Below are positions 2,682-8,694 of a DNA stretch of 8,694 nucleotides, in pieces. Position 1 is the stretch's first letter. Each line of letters opens with the position of its first letter. The stretch is from the NCBI GenBank assembly GCA_014383605.1, contig JACNHM010000531.1, forward strand, positions 2,111 to 10,804. Direction: 5' to 3'. The position numbers were made by a program, and so were the translations under genes. This DNA comes from Chloroflexota bacterium (GTDB lineage Bacteria > Chloroflexota > Anaerolineae > UBA3071). A model generated the notes under the pieces. The model searched no databases. It worked only from the letters and a program-made list of their open reading frames with translations, and was not told the DNA's origin.

Positions 2682-2703
2682 GTTTTACGCTTTACGTTTT
2701 ACG
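2682..2703. repeat. Heptamer-type AT-rich repeat (TTTACG units)
   Basis: Three successive units, GTTTTACG, CTTTACG and TTTTACG, form a 7-bp-period array just left of the insertion sequence boundary, in the 46-base gap after the GH13 stop. It is short and has no coding content. Similar degenerate heptamers are, to my recollection, common between genes in several bacterial phyla. Confidence 0.6.
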
Positions 2704-2724
2704 GCATTGAGGCAAAAGTGACAC
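2703..2724 (+). repeat. Left terminal inverted repeat of the IS
   Basis: GGCATTGAGG, then C, AAAAGT, GA, CAC. It matches the reverse complement of 4491-4512 at 19 of 22 positions (mismatches at positions 11, 18 and 19). The repeat also contains the -35 hexamer of the transposase promoter. Confidence 0.88.
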
Positions 2725-2746
2725 GAGCGTGAGTTTGTGGTACAAT
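2718..2746 (+). promoter_or_regulatory. Sigma70-like promoter of the transposase
   Basis: GTGACA (2718-2723, 5/6 to TTGACA), a 17-base spacer, then TACAAT (2741-2746, 5/6 to TATAAT). The -35 lies inside the left inverted repeat, so transposase binding at the end could repress its own promoter, a common IS arrangement. The expected transcription start is near 2753, giving a leader of about 30 bases before the ATG at 2785. Confidence 0.7.
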
Positions 2747-2784
2747 TGGACCGCACCAACAGAGTACAGAGAAAGGAGCGGTCC

Positions 2785-4489
2785 ATGGCCAAGACAGCCA
2801 AGCAGTTAGAAGTCAAAGCACGGCACATTTACAAGCCAGAGATAGAGACCTGTCCCCATTGCGACGAACCATTGCGTGCACGTTCCTACTACCAGTGGCG
2901 CAAGACGGTGCAGCAGTTGGCTGGGGCGGTGTATGTGGCCAGTGAGGCCCAAGAGTGCGTCAATCCGGAGTGCTCGCATCAAGGGCAGCCTTACACCTCG
3001 GCGGAGGCGCAGATGGTCACGGTGCCGGAATGCACGTATGGTCTGGACATCATCGCCCAGATCGGCTGGTGGCGAGACCGGGAGCATCTGAACCGGGAGC
3101 AAATCCATAGCCGGCTCCGGGAGCGAGAGGTGCAGATCAGTGAGCGTCAGGTAGACCATCTGTATGCTCGCTATCAGGTGCTGATGGCCAGCGCTGAACG
3201 GCTGGAACGGGAACAGTTGGAACAGGTGGTCGCCGAGCGCGGAGGCCTGATCATCAGCCTGGACGGTCTGGAACCCGAAGGGGCGTCCGAGCAACTGTGG
3301 ATGGTGCGCGAAGTACAAAGCGAACTGATCCTTGTGGTGGGCTGGTTGCCCCGGGTGAACCACCAGACCTTGAAGGGTTTGCTGGCCCCGGTGGCGGACC
3401 TCGGACTGCCAGTGCTGGCCACGCTGAGCGACAAACAAAGGTGTGTGCGCAAAGCGTTGGAGGAGACCTGGCCGGAAGTGCCCCATCAATGGTGCCAATC
3501 GCACTACCTGGGCAATGTCACCCGCCCTATTTACGACCACGATTCGGCGCTCAAGACGGAGTTACGCAAAACCATCCGCGAAGCGCTACGGGAAAGCATG
3601 AAGGGGGTGTTATCCGCGCCGGAAGGCTCGGTTTTTTCCCCCTCAGTTGGTCACGGGGATGCTGGTGGAGGCTGTCCCCGCTGAAGATGTCACTGGGCAA
3701 CCGCCGACCCGGCAGCAGGTGGTGCGGGACTTGGCCATGGATATGCAACAAGCCCTATCACGCACGGGACGGGCCCCCTTTGAGATGTCCGGGTTGCCTA
3801 TGTTCGACGACCTCTGCGCCCTGCAGGAAACGCTGGCCCAATGTCTGGCGCTGGGTGAGGACCCCCACTTGCGCCATTGGCACCGGGTGTTAAGCCAGAC
3901 GTTGCCGGCCTACCGGCAGCCCTTTACCGAGGTACAACAGGCCCTCGACTGGGTGAAGCCCATCAAGGTCATTCTGCAGCAGGCTCCTTTGCCCACGGAG
4001 AAGGAAGCGTCTCCGGGGGGCGATAGGGTCGCCCGCCAACTGGCTCACTACCTGGGCCCGTTGGCTGACAGGTCGGATCTCAGCCCCTGGCTGACCGCTT
4101 TTCGCAAGGAGCTGTTGGCGATCAGCGAACGCTACTGGTCGGGGCTCTTTCACTGCTACAACATCATGGGCTTGCCCCGTACGAACAACGACCACGAAAA
4201 CCTGTATGGGCAGATCAAACGGCATCTCAGACGGCAACGCGGTGTGGAAGACCTGCGTGATCCCCTGCGCCGTCATGGGGCCTGGCTGGTCTTCCAGAAC
4301 CAGGGGGCATCTCCCGAAGAGTTGTGGGAACGCCTGGCTCAAGTCAGTTGGGAGGCGTACTTCGCCGAGCGTGCCCGCTATGAGCAGCGACAGGCGCTCT
4401 TTCGCCGACGCTACCAGTGGCGCCACAAGCGGGAAGCAGTGAGGCAGCAACGAGTGACCGCCTGGGCTGAAGCTGTCTTGGATTGTTAA
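2785..4489 (+). CDS. DDE/CxxH-type transposase, interrupted by a frameshift
   Basis: Transposase of the IS, about 567 residues if the frameshift is bridged. The start ATG at 2785 is chosen because GAAAGGAG (2771-2778) sits six bases upstream. N-terminal half: putative zinc ribbon CPHC (residues 23-26) with C58 and C63, a helix-turn-helix-like segment around 101-130, catalytic-type Asp in SLDG (D160) and LSDKQ (D216), and a CQSH (237-240) CxxH motif as in Mutator/IS256/ISL3-like RNase H transposases. C-terminal half: the candidate catalytic Glu lies in TNNDHENLYGQIKR (codon at 4196-4198). The first frame continues to a stop ending at 3684. The second frame, one base later, is clearly the natural continuation from about 3640 to 4489. 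The shift lies near G5 at 3603-3607 or, more likely, the T6/C5 run at 3632-3642. It could be an inactivating indel, a homopolymer sequencing error, or a programmed +1 shift at CCC-TCA. The DDE residue assignments are mine, by motif context. Confidence 0.85.
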
Positions 4490-4490
4490 C

Positions 4491-4512
4491 GTGCGACTTT
4501 TACCTCAATGCC
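4491..4512 (-). repeat. Right terminal inverted repeat of the IS
   Basis: Read on the minus strand it is GGCATTGAGG, T, AAAAGT, CG, CAC, pairing with the left repeat at 19/22. It begins one base after the transposase stop codon. The gene A start codon lies 39 bases beyond its outer end. Confidence 0.88.
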
Positions 4513-4551
4513 TAAAAAGGCAAACCGCACGCGAGCAAAGGACATCTGACC

Positions 4552-5454
4552 ATGAAACTTCCCCCATCCGACGTAGACATCTTTTACGAAATCCAAACGT
4601 CCCTCTACAGCTTCGTAAACCAGCAGCGCCAACTGTTTCCGGAGATGGAGACGCGAGAGGACCTCACCATGTTTGCGGAGTTGGAGAAGATAGACGCCTT
4701 GCGCCAGGCACTCTACGACGACATGAGCCTGCTGGACGAGTTCCTGGCCGTCAATCCCCATACCCTGCCCGCCGGTCACCTGGAGATCGCCCGCTCCTGG
4801 CATCACCGCAAGGCCGGCACGTTCTACATCTTCCGCTACCTGAAGAAGTACACCGTCTTTCTCGACGACAAAGAACCGGCGAAGGCCTACGGCGTGCTGG
4901 GGCTGCGCAGCGACTTCGACGAGGTCGTGCCCATGCCCCTTCCGACCCTGGTCCAAGCGGTGCTACTGCCCTTCCGAGCGCATATCGTCTTCGATGGCCT
5001 GCTCAAACCCTACAGCGTGATCTTCGGCGGCGGCATCCGGCGCAGTCTCAACGATAGCTACCGCGACGCCAAAGAACGCTTCGGCATCATCACCTCCCTG
5101 CTGCCCGAGCCAGGAGAGGACGAGGCGGCTGTCCAGTCCAGTTATGCACCTATACTCAAGGCGTTTCGTCGTTGGCTGGGCAAGTACGCTTTGCGTCCGC
5201 AGACCGTCGAGAGGCACGTCAGCAACGTCCATCACTTTGCCGAGACCTACCTGGAGCGTCAGAAACCGCCGCGCCGTTTCGACCAAGTCACGACGGCTGA
5301 AGTAACCGCTTACCTGGCCGGACCACTCCCGCCGGGTGTCCAGATCAAAGGCAGCGTCGTCAGCTTCAAGAAATTCTTCCGGTTCATGGAAGAGACCGGA
5401 CGGATGGACTACGAGGCTGCCTACGACATCCTGGCTTATCTGCGTATTCAGTGA
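4552..5454 (+). CDS. Gene A: 300-residue protein of unknown function with recombinase core-binding-like C-terminus
   Basis: I do not recognise a named family. The N-terminal part (1-100) is helical and acidic. The middle (about 77-182) has a conserved-looking sequence (EIARSWHHRKAGTF, YLKKYTVFLDD, YGVLGL, LLPFRAHIVFDGLL, IFGGGIRRSLNDSY) predicted to be an alpha/beta domain. Residues about 198-298 (AFRRWLGKYALRPQTVERHV through FKKFFRFMEETGRM) resemble the SAM-like core-binding domain of tyrosine recombinases, but no catalytic domain with R-H-R-Y follows. No signal peptide or membrane segment is seen. The ATG follows AAAGGA (4537-4542) by nine bases. The coding 5' end is 93% identical over 86 bases to a remnant at 7658-7743, and 28 of 38 leader bases also match. 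The IS right end lies 39 bases upstream, so the original promoter region is missing. The gene B tail remnant begins two bases after the stop. A DNA-binding or accessory role is possible but unproven. Confidence 0.8.
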   Translation: MKLPPSDVDIFYEIQTSLYSFVNQQRQLFPEMETREDLTMFAELEKIDALRQALYDDMSLLDEFLAVNPHTLPAGHLEIARSWHHRKAGTFYIFRYLKKYTVFLDDKEPAKAYGVLGLRSDFDEVVPMPLPTLVQAVLLPFRAHIVFDGLLKPYSVIFGGGIRRSLNDSYRDAKERFGIITSLLPEPGEDEAAVQSSYAPILKAFRRWLGKYALRPQTVERHVSNVHHFAETYLERQKPPRRFDQVTTAEVTAYLAGPLPPGVQIKGSVVSFKKFFRFMEETGRMDYEAAYDILAYLRIQ

Positions 5455-5456
5455 CA

Positions 5457-5686
5457 ATGGCTCGCTTTCGCCACCATCGCGACTTCATCTTTGTCTTGGC
5501 GCGGCTGGTGCCGTCCGGCGCCCGCCTCTGGCTCCAGGGCTGGTTGGAAGCCACAGCTCATGGCACCTTCGCCGTTCACGAACTACCATTTTGAGAGGGA
5601 AGGAAGCGCCGTACATCGCCCGCCTGCGGGAGGAGCAGCGGCGGCTGCCCGCTCTGCAAGACGAACTGAACAGGTCCGGGCTGTGA
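5457..5686 (+). pseudogene. Remnant of the 3' end of gene B
   Basis: Bases 5463-5543 match 8614-8694 of gene B at 73/81 positions. The encoded RFRHHRDFIFVLARLVPSGA segment is nearly the same as RFRHHRDFIFALARLMPSGA in gene B. The fragment could be read from ATG 5457 as a 45-codon ORF ending in TGA at 5592-5594. Immediately after, another frame gives good coding-like sequence (GKEAPYIARLREEQRRLPAL and on to NRSGL) ending in TGA at 5684-5686. This suggests the remnant also suffered a frameshift near 5590 and that the true B C-terminus ends like this. It lacks roughly the first 282 codons of B. It starts two bases after the gene A stop, where an intact B would be expected. Homology to B is seen directly; the frameshift and tail extension are inferred. 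Confidence 0.75.
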
Positions 5687-5711
5687 GCGGAGCTCAGCAC
5701 ATCACAATTGA

Positions 5712-5777
5712 TGGCGAGGAGTTGCACAGTGTTGGCGAGGAGTTGCACTCCGAGCCCTTGTGCGGAAGTACAACTCC
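5712..5777. repeat. Direct repeat pair plus inverted partner (hairpin candidate)
   Basis: TGGCGAGGAGTTGCAC occurs twice, at 5712-5727 and 5733-5748, offset 21 bases. GTACAACTCC at 5768-5777 is a near inverted copy of GGAGTTGCAC (9 of 10 paired), so the second copy and this segment can form a 10-bp stem with a 19-base loop. It lies in the ~120-base gap between the gene B remnant (+) and the minus-strand DUF389-like ORF, which converge here. No T-tract follows, so it is not a textbook terminator. It may be a bidirectional transcription-stop structure, an operator-like repeat, or debris. The rest of the gap shows no gene. Confidence 0.5.
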
Positions 5778-5808
5778 CTCTCATCGGGCAGCCGAGCTGT
5801 GAGCAGGG

Positions 5809-6012
5809 CTAGCGAGGTGGGGCTTCGACCTCCGTGATGGGGATGGTCATCAAGCGGACGCGCGTCGGCCTGCCGATGTCCCGGCTCAACTCATCGCTCA
5901 ACCACTCAGCCTCGGCCGCGGTGATGGGACGCTGCCTGTAGAGGGTGGCCATCACCTCCACCTCTGTCCTGTGATCCTCGAATTCGAAGCCCACCAACTC
6001 CACATCGTCCAT
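5809..6012 (-). CDS. Small DUF389-tail-like protein, standalone or remnant
   Basis: 67-residue ORF from ATG at 6012-6010. The sequence (MDDVELVGFEFEDHRTEVEV, then PITAAEAEWLSDELSRDIGR, ending VRLMTIPITEVEAP) resembles the cytoplasmic C-terminal tail of DUF389 membrane proteins as I remember them: a short beta strand, a helix and a final hydrophobic strand. No membrane-spanning part is present. The frame extends upstream to a TTG at 6063, but that would run through the -35/-10 elements of its own apparent promoter, so the internal ATG is preferred. With a predicted transcript start near 6019 the leader would be only ~7 bases and without a Shine-Dalgarno site, meaning near-leaderless translation. 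It could be a functional orphan domain or the last piece of a decayed DUF389 gene. Homology is from memory and moderate. Confidence 0.5.
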   Translation of the reverse strand: MDDVELVGFEFEDHRTEVEVMATLYRQRPITAAEAEWLSDELSRDIGRPTRVRLMTIPITEVEAPPR

Positions 6013-6025
6013 CTGAGCCGAGTAT

Positions 6026-6054
6026 AGTATAGCAGCCTTCGCACTGTTTGACAA
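6026..6054 (-). promoter_or_regulatory. Sigma70 promoter for the minus-strand DUF389-like ORF
   Basis: On the minus strand, TTGTCA (6054-6049, 5/6 to TTGACA), a 17-base spacer and TATACT (6031-6026, 5/6 to TATAAT). A second overlapping TATACT lies immediately downstream. The expected start is near 6019, only ~7 bases before the ATG at 6012. Its -35 overlaps the plus-strand -35 by five bases, so the two promoters probably compete for polymerase. Confidence 0.65.
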
Positions 6055-6076
6055 AAGGTTCAACTTGGCCTATCAT
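6048..6076 (+). promoter_or_regulatory. Sigma70 promoter for the phosphofructokinase gene
   Basis: Perfect -35 TTGACA (6048-6053), 17-base spacer, -10 TATCAT (6071-6076, 4/6 with the key TA and final T kept). The expected start is near 6083, giving a leader of about 30 bases containing GGAGGG (6100-6105) six bases before the ATG at 6112. Confidence 0.8.
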
Positions 6077-6086
6077 ATCGTTGAAC
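6058..6086. promoter_or_regulatory. Candidate operator: GTTCAAC-N15-GTTGAAC
   Basis: A perfect 7-bp inverted repeat, GTTCAAC (6058-6064) and GTTGAAC (6080-6086), brackets the -10 of the phosphofructokinase promoter. Half-site centres are 22 bases apart, about two helical turns, as expected for a dimeric repressor bound to one face. The left half lies in the spacer and the right half over the predicted start. No regulator gene is nearby. Chance occurrence is possible. Confidence 0.4.
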
Positions 6087-6111
6087 GGAGCAGAGGTTTG
6101 GAGGGTATGAC

Positions 6112-7410
6112 ATGGCTCGACCTCGAAACGTCGTCGTCGCCCAGTCGGGCGGCCCAACACCGGTGATCAACAACTCGCTGCGCGGCATCGGGGAAACCTG
6201 CCGGGCCATGCCGGAGCATTTCGGCACGGTCTATGCCGGCTGGCACGGCATCGAGGGCCTGCTGCAAGAGGAACTTCTGGACCTTTCGGCGCAGCCCGCG
6301 GAGGAGATCTGCCTGCTGGGCGTCACGCCCGCTGCCGGGGCCATCGGCACCTGCCGCTACAAGATGAAAACCGCCCAGCAGGAGGACTTCGAGCGCGTGG
6401 TCGAGGTCTTCAAGGCCCACAACGTCGGCTACTTCTTCTACATCGGCGGCAACGACAGCATGGATACGGCCCACCAGGTGGCGCGACTGGCCGGCGAGCG
6501 GGGACTGGATCTCGTCTCCACCGGCGTGCCCAAGACCATTGACAACGACGTGGGCGATGCCGAGTTCAAGCTGATTGACCACACGCCAGGCTACGGCTCG
6601 GTGGCCCGCTACTGGGCGCTCACCGTGCAAAACGCTAACCAGGAGAACGCCGGCTCCTGTCCCGCCGACTCGGTACTGGTGATGCAAGCCATGGGGCGCA
6701 AGATCGGCTTCATCCCCGCCGCCGCCCGCCTGGCCGACCCGCAGCGAGAGATGCCCCTGCTCATCGCCCTGCGGGAGTCGGGGCTGATGCTTTCAGAGCT
6801 GGCCGACGCCGTCAACGACGTGCTGCGCCAGCGGGGCCGCTGCCTGCTGGTCATTAGCGAGGGCTTCTCCGTCCCCCAGGAGCAACTGGGCGTGCTGAAG
6901 GACAGTTTCGGGCACGTCATGTTCTCCTCCAGCCGGATGAACGTCGAGCGCATCGTGGTCAACTACCTGAACGACGTGGGGCTGGCGGCGCGCGGCGCCG
7001 CCCGCGGCAATGTGCCCGGCACCGACCAGCGCCACAGCATGATCTACGCTTCGACGGTGGATCTGGAGGAAGCATACAAGGTGGGGCAGAAGGCCGTGCT
7101 GCTGGCTCTGGAGGATGGCTCCGGCTACATGGCCACGATCCTGCGGGAGCCCGGCCCCATCTACAACGTGCGCTATGACAAGGTGGAGCTGGAGTTGGTG
7201 GCTAACTCCGAGCGATCTTTCCCTGCGGCCTGGATCGCTCCCAGCCGGCTGGATGTGACCGACGACTTCGTGCGCTACGCCCGCCCGCTCATCGGCGACG
7301 ATTGGCCGAGCATCCCACTGGTGGATGGTCGCCAGCGCTTCGCCCGCTTGCAGCCCATCTTTGCCGAGAAGAAGCTGCCTGCGTACGTCCCTCAGGCCTA
7401 CCGCGTCTGA
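6112..7410 (+). CDS. Pyrophosphate-type 6-phosphofructokinase
   Basis: 432-residue cytoplasmic phosphofructokinase, converting fructose 6-phosphate to fructose 1,6-bisphosphate, most likely with PPi as donor (reversible) rather than ATP. Family motifs: QSGGPTPVIN (11-20, phosphoryl-donor loop), IGGNDSMDTA (111-120) in place of the GGDGS of ATP enzymes, PKTIDND (140-146, with the catalytic-base Asp of the TIDND motif), MGRKIGF (194-200, sugar-phosphate binding) and ISEG (248-251). Asn in GGND replaces the second Gly/Asp position diagnostic for ATP versus PPi use. This variant occurs in a PPi-PFK-like subgroup, so the donor is inferred. Length fits the ~400-430 residues of this group, longer than the ~320 of bacterial PfkA. 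The start ATG is supported by GGAGGG six bases upstream; an earlier ATG at 6107 is out of frame. It is transcribed from its own strong promoter and appears monocistronic. Confidence 0.93.
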   Translation: MARPRNVVVAQSGGPTPVINNSLRGIGETCRAMPEHFGTVYAGWHGIEGLLQEELLDLSAQPAEEICLLGVTPAAGAIGTCRYKMKTAQQEDFERVVEVFKAHNVGYFFYIGGNDSMDTAHQVARLAGERGLDLVSTGVPKTIDNDVGDAEFKLIDHTPGYGSVARYWALTVQNANQENAGSCPADSVLVMQAMGRKIGFIPAAARLADPQREMPLLIALRESGLMLSELADAVNDVLRQRGRCLLVISEGFSVPQEQLGVLKDSFGHVMFSSSRMNVERIVVNYLNDVGLAARGAARGNVPGTDQRHSMIYASTVDLEEAYKVGQKAVLLALEDGSGYMATILREPGPIYNVRYDKVELELVANSERSFPAAWIAPSRLDVTDDFVRYARPLIGDDWPSIPLVDGRQRFARLQPIFAEKKLPAYVPQAYRV

Positions 7411-7470
7411 TCTTGGCACATCCTCTTGCGAGTGTGATGGTCAACTGCATGCTGGACAATCCGGTGGGAC

Positions 7471-7499
7471 GCGGACAAACGCAGACGAACGCGGAGACC
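7471..7499. repeat. Decamer tandem repeat GCGGACAAAC-type, three units
   Basis: GCGGACAAAC (7471-7480), GCAGACGAAC (7481-7490) and GCGGAGACC (7491-7499) form a ten-base-period array, one helical turn per unit, in the 241-base gap after the phosphofructokinase stop. The following stretch (7500-7560) is pyrimidine-rich and shows no gene. Such degenerate arrays are typically dispersed in intergenic regions of this kind of genome, as I recall. Confidence 0.65.
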
Positions 7500-7570
7500 T
7501 CTTTGTTTTCCGCGCCTTTCCGTGTTCATTCGTGCCTTATCCCTTTGCCGCTTTGTCGGACATCCGCCCG

Positions 7571-7599
7571 TTGTCGTTTGGCGCCAGGCGTGATAGAAT
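7571..7599 (+). promoter_or_regulatory. Probable promoter of the right-hand A/B locus
   Basis: TTGTCG (7571-7576, 4/6), 17-base spacer, TAGAAT (7594-7599, 5/6). The expected start is near 7606, about 46-52 bases before the ATGs at 7652/7658 and ~160 bases before gene B. The left locus has no equivalent, because the IS replaces the sequence at this position. Confidence 0.5.
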
Positions 7600-7657
7600 A
7601 CCGGCACCATTCGCATCTCAAGAAGGCACAAGGCACGAAGGCAGAGGAGATATGACC

Positions 7658-7743
7658 ATGAAACTTCCCTCCCCCGACGTAGACATCTCTTACGAAATCC
7701 AAACGTCCCTCTACAGCTTCGTAAACCGGCAACGCCAACTGTT
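7658..7743 (+). pseudogene. Remnant of the 5' end of gene A
   Basis: The first 28 codons of gene A (MKLPSPDVDISYEIQTSLYS and on to RQRQL) are kept, 80/86 bases identical to 4552-4637. The 38 leader bases before the ATG (7620-7657) also match at 28 positions. GAGGAG at 7643-7648 gives a ribosome site, and an in-frame ATG lies at 7652. Homology stops abruptly after CAACTGTT and is followed by GGTGACAAGG and the gene B ribosome site. The open frame then runs out of register through the gene B start to a stop at 7868-7870, so a ~70-residue chimeric peptide could be made but has no coding support past codon 29. Best read as gene A with codons ~30-300 deleted; alternatively a translated leader for gene B. 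Confidence 0.75.
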
Positions 7744-7767
7744 GGTGACAAGGAAAGGAGATGAACC

Positions 7768-8694
7768 ATGTCGATTCAGGAATGCGCCCTCTACAGCGAT
7801 TTGGTCCTCTGGCTGCGCGACCGAGCCGCCGAACTGTTGGCCGAGGCCAAGAGTGGGGCCACTACCGTAGAGGCGGAGGCCGCCCGTCTGGACGAACTGA
7901 TCCGCAGTTGGTTCTTCACGCCCCAGGAGGAGCTCTACGGCTCTGCGCCGCGTGAGGTGATCTGGAGAGAACAGTTGGGCGAGCCCAACCCGATCCCCAA
8001 GGAATACGCAGACGAGGCCATCGCCGATGATGACTGCCCTATCTGCCAGATGATGCGCGAGGAGATCGAATCGGCCGAGAGCGACCACAATCACGGCTGG
8101 CACTGGACATATTGTCCCGATAGCTGCCTTCTCGACCGCTACGATCCGGAAGGGAGCGAGGAGCGTTGGCAGAAGGATCTCGCTGATTTCGGTGAGTGGA
8201 AAGCTCAAGGAGAGGAAGACCAGCGCCAAACCGCATCGCCTCCGCCCCGCGCTCCGCTTCCGATGGAAAGCAAGCAGGTGGACCCCGAAACCTTCCTGCA
8301 ACTGTTGCGCTGGCCCTGGCTTGATCCCGAACTGCACCGGGCGGCCCAGGAGCTGGCCCAGCGCTGCGACGTGCCGGCCCGTGACGAAGGCGGCAACCTG
8401 GCCTATCGCCGGCTGACCCAGACGGAAGCGGTTTCGATGGTCGCTGGCCTGCAGCGTCAGGGGGTAGACGTTTCAGCCCTCATGAGCCAGATCGTAGCCT
8501 GGCCCTACCAGAACGTGGCGCTGGACTGGCTCAGCCAGCCGGAGGAAAATGCGGCCCTCATCTGCCAGGCTATGGAGACGGAGATCTCTCCACAAGATGC
8601 CAGCGAACTGACACGCTTTCGCCACCATCGCGATTTCATCTTCGCCCTGGCGCGGCTCATGCCTTCTGGCGCCCGCCTCTGGCTCCAGGGCTGG
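7768..8694 (+). CDS. Gene B: unknown protein with Cys/His cluster, runs off window
   Basis: Open from ATG 7768 to the window end with no stop, at least 309 residues. The start is supported by AAAGGAG (7754-7760) seven bases upstream. Residues 1-85 are mostly helical. At 90-120 lies DDDCPICQMMREEI (C90, C93), then H107, H109, H112, and YCPDSC (C116, C120), a plausible zinc-binding module. A Gln/Pro-rich linker (about 150-168) leads to a second, helical region (172-309) rich in Trp and Leu (LLRWPWLDPELHRAAQEL). No signal peptide or membrane segment is seen. The C-terminus can be guessed from the remnant at 5544-5591, whose codons continue as LEATAHGTFAVHELPF, and possibly ~30 residues more. I do not recognise the family. 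Codon use (GC-rich third positions) matches the neighbours. It probably functions with gene A, since remnants of both occur together twice. Confidence 0.85.
   Translation, partial: MSIQECALYSDLVLWLRDRAAELLAEAKSGATTVEAEAARLDELIRSWFFTPQEELYGSAPREVIWREQLGEPNPIPKEYADEAIADDDCPICQMMREEIESAESDHNHGWHWTYCPDSCLLDRYDPEGSEERWQKDLADFGEWKAQGEEDQRQTASPPPRAPLPMESKQVDPETFLQLLRWPWLDPELHRAAQELAQRCDVPARDEGGNLAYRRLTQTEAVSMVAGLQRQGVDVSALMSQIVAWPYQNVALDWLSQPEENAALICQAMETEISPQDASELTRFRHHRDFIFALARLMPSGARLWLQGW

Follow-up and report, generated by a model that had tools for sequence, protein, structure and literature searches.

Two incomplete arrangements of the same two genes, designated A and B, flank a phosphofructokinase gene in a stretch of 8,694 nt from a Chloroflexota bacterium (contig JACNHM010000531.1, positions 2,111 to 10,804; hereafter the window). 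The left arrangement consists of gene A followed by the end of gene B, the right one of the start of gene A followed by gene B. Are these the two copies of a formerly contiguous A-B pair, each of which lost the opposite partner, or did the pieces come together separately? The relevant features are compiled in Table 1.

Table 1. Features of the window that bear on the history of genes A and B
Feature	Position	Strand	Evidence or remark
IS-like element	2703..4512	+	Two overlapping transposase frames (2737-3684, 3647-4489); inverted repeats at both ends
Leader of A, left copy	4514..4551	+	28/38 identical to 7620-7657
Gene A, 300 aa, full length	4552..5454	+	N-terminal helices and OB-like part, C-terminal XerD-type core-binding part
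GTGACAA across the stop codon of A	5451..5457	+	Identical 7-mer at 7745-7751
B remnant, final 45 codons and stop	5457..5594	+	In-frame ATG 2 bases past the stop of A
Phosphofructokinase, diphosphate-dependent type by profile	6112..7410	+	PF00365, 5.6e-33; NF010675, 353.6 bits (cut-off 273)
Sigma-70-like promoter TTGTCG-17-TAGAAT, TG before the second hexamer	7571..7599	+	Consensus match only
Leader and 5′ end of A (86 bases, 28 codons plus 2 bases), right copy	7620..7743	+	Sequence match to the left copy
GTGACAA, probable relic of the stop region of A	7745..7751	+	TGA at 7746-7748, 19 bases before the ATG of B
Probable ribosome binding site of B, GGAAAGGAG	7752..7760	+	Direct reading
Gene B, codons 1-309 of 325, cut off by the window end	7768..8694	+	Comparison with P0121

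The start of gene A (4552-4637) recurs on the plus strand at 7658-7743 with 80/86 identical positions, and the B tail at 5463-5543 matches 8614-8694 at 73/81 (90.1% over 81 nt). These are the figures given by the initial annotation, and recomputation returned them unchanged. The match of gene A runs 38 nt further 5′ of the ATG (28/38 identical), yielding 87.1% identity over 124 nt for leader and A start in full (4514-4637 versus 7620-7743). A repeat search recovered the same two families (87% over 124 nt and 88% over 86 nt). BLASTN scores were 152 bits for the A start and 111 bits for the B tail, far above the top score of 30.1 among 500 dinucleotide shuffles of the left region. Both matched pieces share a common order, a common strand and comparable divergence. 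Remnants of both genes are therefore present in both copies in like order and orientation, as reciprocal loss demands.

The product of gene A (300 aa) has 545 homologues at E values of 0.001 or below and is of full length, its C-terminus falling near the ends of its relatives. An OB-like part is followed by a XerD-type core-binding part that ends at residue 300. The core-binding (SAM-like) domain is shared with tyrosine recombinases such as XerD, XerA and lambda Int. A defining feature of tyrosine recombinases is their catalytic domain; A departs from them here, as the Pfam matches of A and of 31 aligned relatives include no catalytic-domain family. The resemblance to OB-fold proteins (SSB, RecO, PriB) has a Z value within the range of common arrangements, and Pfam scans gave no sequence relation to them. 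From its fold, A is probably a DNA binder. In two haloarchaeal plasmids (L092, L093) the first domain of A follows a UPF0175-PIN pair.

For gene B, 189 homologues were found, with no good match to any known family, and no function can be assigned. The nearest homologue, P0121, comprises 325 aa, is 99% identical (2 differences in 309 residues) and ends in WLEATAHGAFTVHELPF. Because this protein gives the length of B as 325 aa, the left fragment, which translates to MARFRHHRDFIFVLARLVPSGARLWLQGWLEATAHGTFAVHELPF and then reaches a stop at 5592-5594, covers B from codon 281 to its end at codon 325, 45 codons in all. The end of B had previously been predicted from positions 5544-5686; comparison with P0121 bears this out up to 5594, while 5595-5686 do not belong to B. 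The window end (8668-8694) is an exact 27-nt repeat of 5517-5543 and leaves B 16 codons short of its end. As the contig stops exactly where this repeat ends, the missing 3′ end suggests an assembly break. Both differences between B and P0121 (residues 293 and 298) lie within the duplicated tail 8614-8694. Residue 298 of P0121 agrees with the left tail copy, and an exchange between tail copies in another strain is possible from this residue.

The junctions carry a further shared element. The stop region of A reads CAGTGACAATGG, and the segment right of the A-head, before the ATG of B, reads TTGGTGACAAGGAAAGGAG; both contain GTGACAA. A shared 7-mer of any kind occurred between random 17-nt pairs from this window at a frequency of 0.012. 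On the right, GTGACAA lies where the stop of A would be expected if A had once run up to B. The nearest relatives of A after P0001, namely P0002 and P0003 (72-73% identical), have tryptophan as the last residue before the stop; this would fit a TTGG-TGA reading on the right, while other relatives end otherwise. The motif common to both junctions would thus support, but does not prove, a former adjacency of A and B. At the left junction the stop of A and the ATG of the tail are two bases apart, within GTGACAATGG.

The two remnants have diverged in different ways. The A-head differs from A by 6 bases in the first 28 codons, and 5 of these 6 fall in codons in which the residue is changed; one of the residues affected is F11, in a column that hardly varies. 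Between the B-tail copies there are 8 base differences, of which 6 are synonymous and 2 alter the amino acid (P = 0.007 for two or fewer amino-acid changes out of 8 under the neutral expectation). This contrast, in numbers that are small, is what would be expected if the A-head has been drifting while the B tail diverged under constraint.

A promoter scan of positions 4400-8694 on both strands listed 4 sites versus a mean of 0.7 in shuffles. One of them precedes the right A-head; none was listed before the left A in 4400-4551, the scan having begun at 4400. On the simplest reading, the old promoter and leader survived in the right copy, with a putative role for B. Upstream of the left copy, the IS-like element has inverted repeats that agree at 21/26 positions in the best 26-nt alignment, at 2700 and 4515, its edges having been set by eye. 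Its right edge (4512) lies two bases before the homology of the A leader begins. No target duplication was found within 6 nt of its edges, and weak profile matches to MULE, IS256 and IS66 all fell below the cut-off. The transposase frame is split near a T6C5 run at 3632-3642.

If A and B had formed a standing operon, adjacent homologues should occur in relatives. Among 396 related genomes of the class, a set that includes 3 genomes of one order and 10 of another, B was found in 26 and A in 67, with a best match below E 1e-40 in 37. A draw of 400 genomes of the phylum gave B in two, both already among the earlier B genomes. B was found here in one class of Chloroflexota only, and the first domain of A reaches haloarchaea. 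A was upstream of B in none of the 21 genomes whose contig extends more than 1 kb beyond the 5′ side of the B match; in five more B genomes (G006, G008, G030, G163, G360), which are outside this count, the contig ended too soon. The comparison is strongest for five of the 21 (G001-G005), because only these have a close full-length B, the others being diverged, first halves or fragments. A separate scan of genome contigs gave 9 loci with B, with A within the stretch read in one. Across 139 loci, A and B were both present in 3 (two of them on one contig) and never adjacent; the contigs of the closest relatives are not among these loci. The initial annotation had named an intact pair with GTGACAAGGAAAGGAG between the genes as support for its model, and a lack of adjacent A and B homologues elsewhere as its refutation. 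Loci were compared by gene adjacency, and with 0/21 the pair does not qualify as a conserved operon.

Just two genomes carry a strong A match and B on one contig, in neither case as neighbours: in G006 B comes first, at a distance of about 4.6 kb, and in G141 about 2.6 kb separate A from a B fragment with stops. In G004 the two genes lie on different contigs in unrelated settings: A adjoins a gene that contains a recombinase-like region, with a large helicase-like gene nearby, and B is enclosed by transporter ATPase and permease genes, all names being read from translations. At L004 2114-3076, B is situated between the apparent ATPase and permease genes of an ABC transporter.

The genes nevertheless co-occur. 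B was present in 4 of the 5 genomes with full-length A versus 0.33 expected (hypergeometric P = 7e-5, kinship ignored), and in 7 of the 37 genomes with A below E 1e-40 versus 2.4 expected (P = 0.006, kinship ignored). Among the B genes of those four genomes, two are fragments with stops and one is a first half only. Overall, A and B look like independent accessory genes that were joined in this lineage.

Broken copies were found elsewhere as well. Short head pieces of B occur in G114, G065 and G141 (the last with stops), a B piece with stops in G009, and pieces of A in G048, G141 and G196. In G003 (L003 9500-11420), a stretch with N gaps has B in the middle, gene C on either side of it and a B tail at each outer end. 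Given these B fragments and the one tandem B array, such decay is not rare.

The phosphofructokinase gene between the two copies had matches at E 1e-100 or below in 59/396 genomes, the twelve best being 79-90% identical. Fifteen phosphofructokinase loci, namely these twelve and three from B-bearing genomes, were read at length, several contigs being short. B occurred in one of them (G001), 3.4 kb upstream of phosphofructokinase on the same strand and without A; A occurred in none, and no outgroup with one intact A-B copy was found among the 15. B may have been near phosphofructokinase before A joined it, judging by this one locus, or the proximity may be due to chance. At L130 4824-10520 (G001), B lies near an apparent triose-phosphate isomerase gene and the phosphofructokinase gene. 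In the window, an 84-codon open frame on the minus strand (5809-6063) had no match among the loci compared.

Taken together, the most economical reading, and in our judgment a probable one, is that one A-B pair was duplicated and then underwent complementary deletions. A contiguous pair would have existed in this lineage, with gene A, about 19 bases and gene B, the short ancestral spacer being predicted to contain GTGACAAGG. This pair would have been duplicated so that its copies now flank the phosphofructokinase gene. From the left copy, codons 1-280 of B would have been deleted from directly behind the stop of A, leaving A and the last 45 codons of B. In the right copy, a deletion would have removed A between codon 29 and roughly its stop; what stayed, namely the promoter region, the ribosome site and the 28 codons at the start of A, would now form the 5′ leader of B. 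The window directly shows the order, strand and identity of the pieces and the motif at the junctions, and A is of full length on the left and B intact on the right as far as the contig goes. From these features we infer that there was one duplication, that deletions followed and that B now uses the old promoter. The co-occurrence of A and B, the near-identical tail on other contigs and the promoter-like site listed before the right A-head but not before the left A also speak for this reading. Against it count the 0/21 genomes with A upstream of B, the lack of an intact A-B pair in any locus read, the shortness of the shared fragments (124 and 86 nt), the presence of B without A near phosphofructokinase in G001, the broken state of three of the four co-occurring B genes and the start of the left deletion within 3 nt of the stop of A, which is convenient for it. 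The reading is compatible with 0/21, since A and B may have been paired in this lineage alone. Hence, of the original proposal of a reciprocally decayed A-B operon, the duplicated A-then-B order and the complementary losses are supported and the standing operon is not; its further suggestion that the pair would work only with both loci kept is a conjecture.

A and B could instead be independent, fragment-prone accessory families whose pieces spread or recombined separately, without any former A-B pair. The pieces of B in G114, G065, G141 and G009, the tail copies and repeated neighbour gene in G003, the pieces of A in three genomes, and the lack of any genome among those examined in which A and B adjoin all speak for such a history, and the modular recombination offered as an alternative in the initial annotation gains some support from the B fragments and the array of B pieces in one genome. 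Two separate events would, however, have to yield the same order, strand, similar divergence and GTGACAA, and we regard this explanation as rather unlikely and still prefer duplication with complementary loss. An assembly chimera of two strains or loci might be suspected from the first ~120 bases, which are almost pure C, and from a contig end exactly at a 27-nt internal repeat. At most about 7 bases are shared at the junctions, which would be too few for a usual graph join, and near-identical counterparts of the tail and of the A and B proteins are known from other contigs; we consider a chimera very improbable. Open frames run through the almost pure C of positions 1-120, which looks like a sequencing artefact (poly-G reads).

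The retained pieces might also be functional: the A-head would then supply B with a leader and a promoter, and the 45-codon tail would be translated as a mini-protein by coupling to A. An in-frame ATG two bases past the stop of A opens a 45-codon frame that runs to the stop of B, a promoter-like site precedes the A-head, and the excess of synonymous changes between the tail copies (6 versus 2, P = 0.007) would fit a translated tail. This excess may, however, date from a time when both B copies were whole, and the ATG may be inherited, because some relatives of B (P0227, P0233, P0242) have Met at this position. No ribosome site is evident for the tail, and 5 of the 6 A-head changes fall in residue-changing codons. 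A search with the B tail alone returned 8 small proteins. One of them, P0241, equals the 45-aa tail except at one position (98% identical) and occurs on 5 contigs, which is in favor of function. As the longest of these contigs measures 1853 bases, none of them is this window, and the tail sequence is therefore not unique to this assembly. The remaining tail matches resemble truncated frames, P0247 having a foreign start. We consider a function of both pieces improbable and give only a slightly better, still slim chance to the narrower idea that the B tail is a translated 45-residue gene, the last two helices of B split off and coupled to A. If so, one duplication would have replaced the pair by two separate units, A with a mini-protein and B with a leader derived from the start of A.

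If duplication followed by complementary deletion is right, the window offers a compact example of a lost pair whose two halves, junctions included, are still readable, and the order of events would be datable in related strains. It also draws attention to A and B, two protein families without a family model here, both often broken, that seem not to have been described before.

Duplication-degeneration is the process in which linked genes are duplicated and then lost in a complementary manner. The present locus differs from it in that the A-B linkage was not seen in relatives and that the second copies are proven by fragments only. It resembles it in that two copies of a linked set are present, each of which keeps a different member, and complementary loss of this kind would be an ordinary outcome of duplication and decay.
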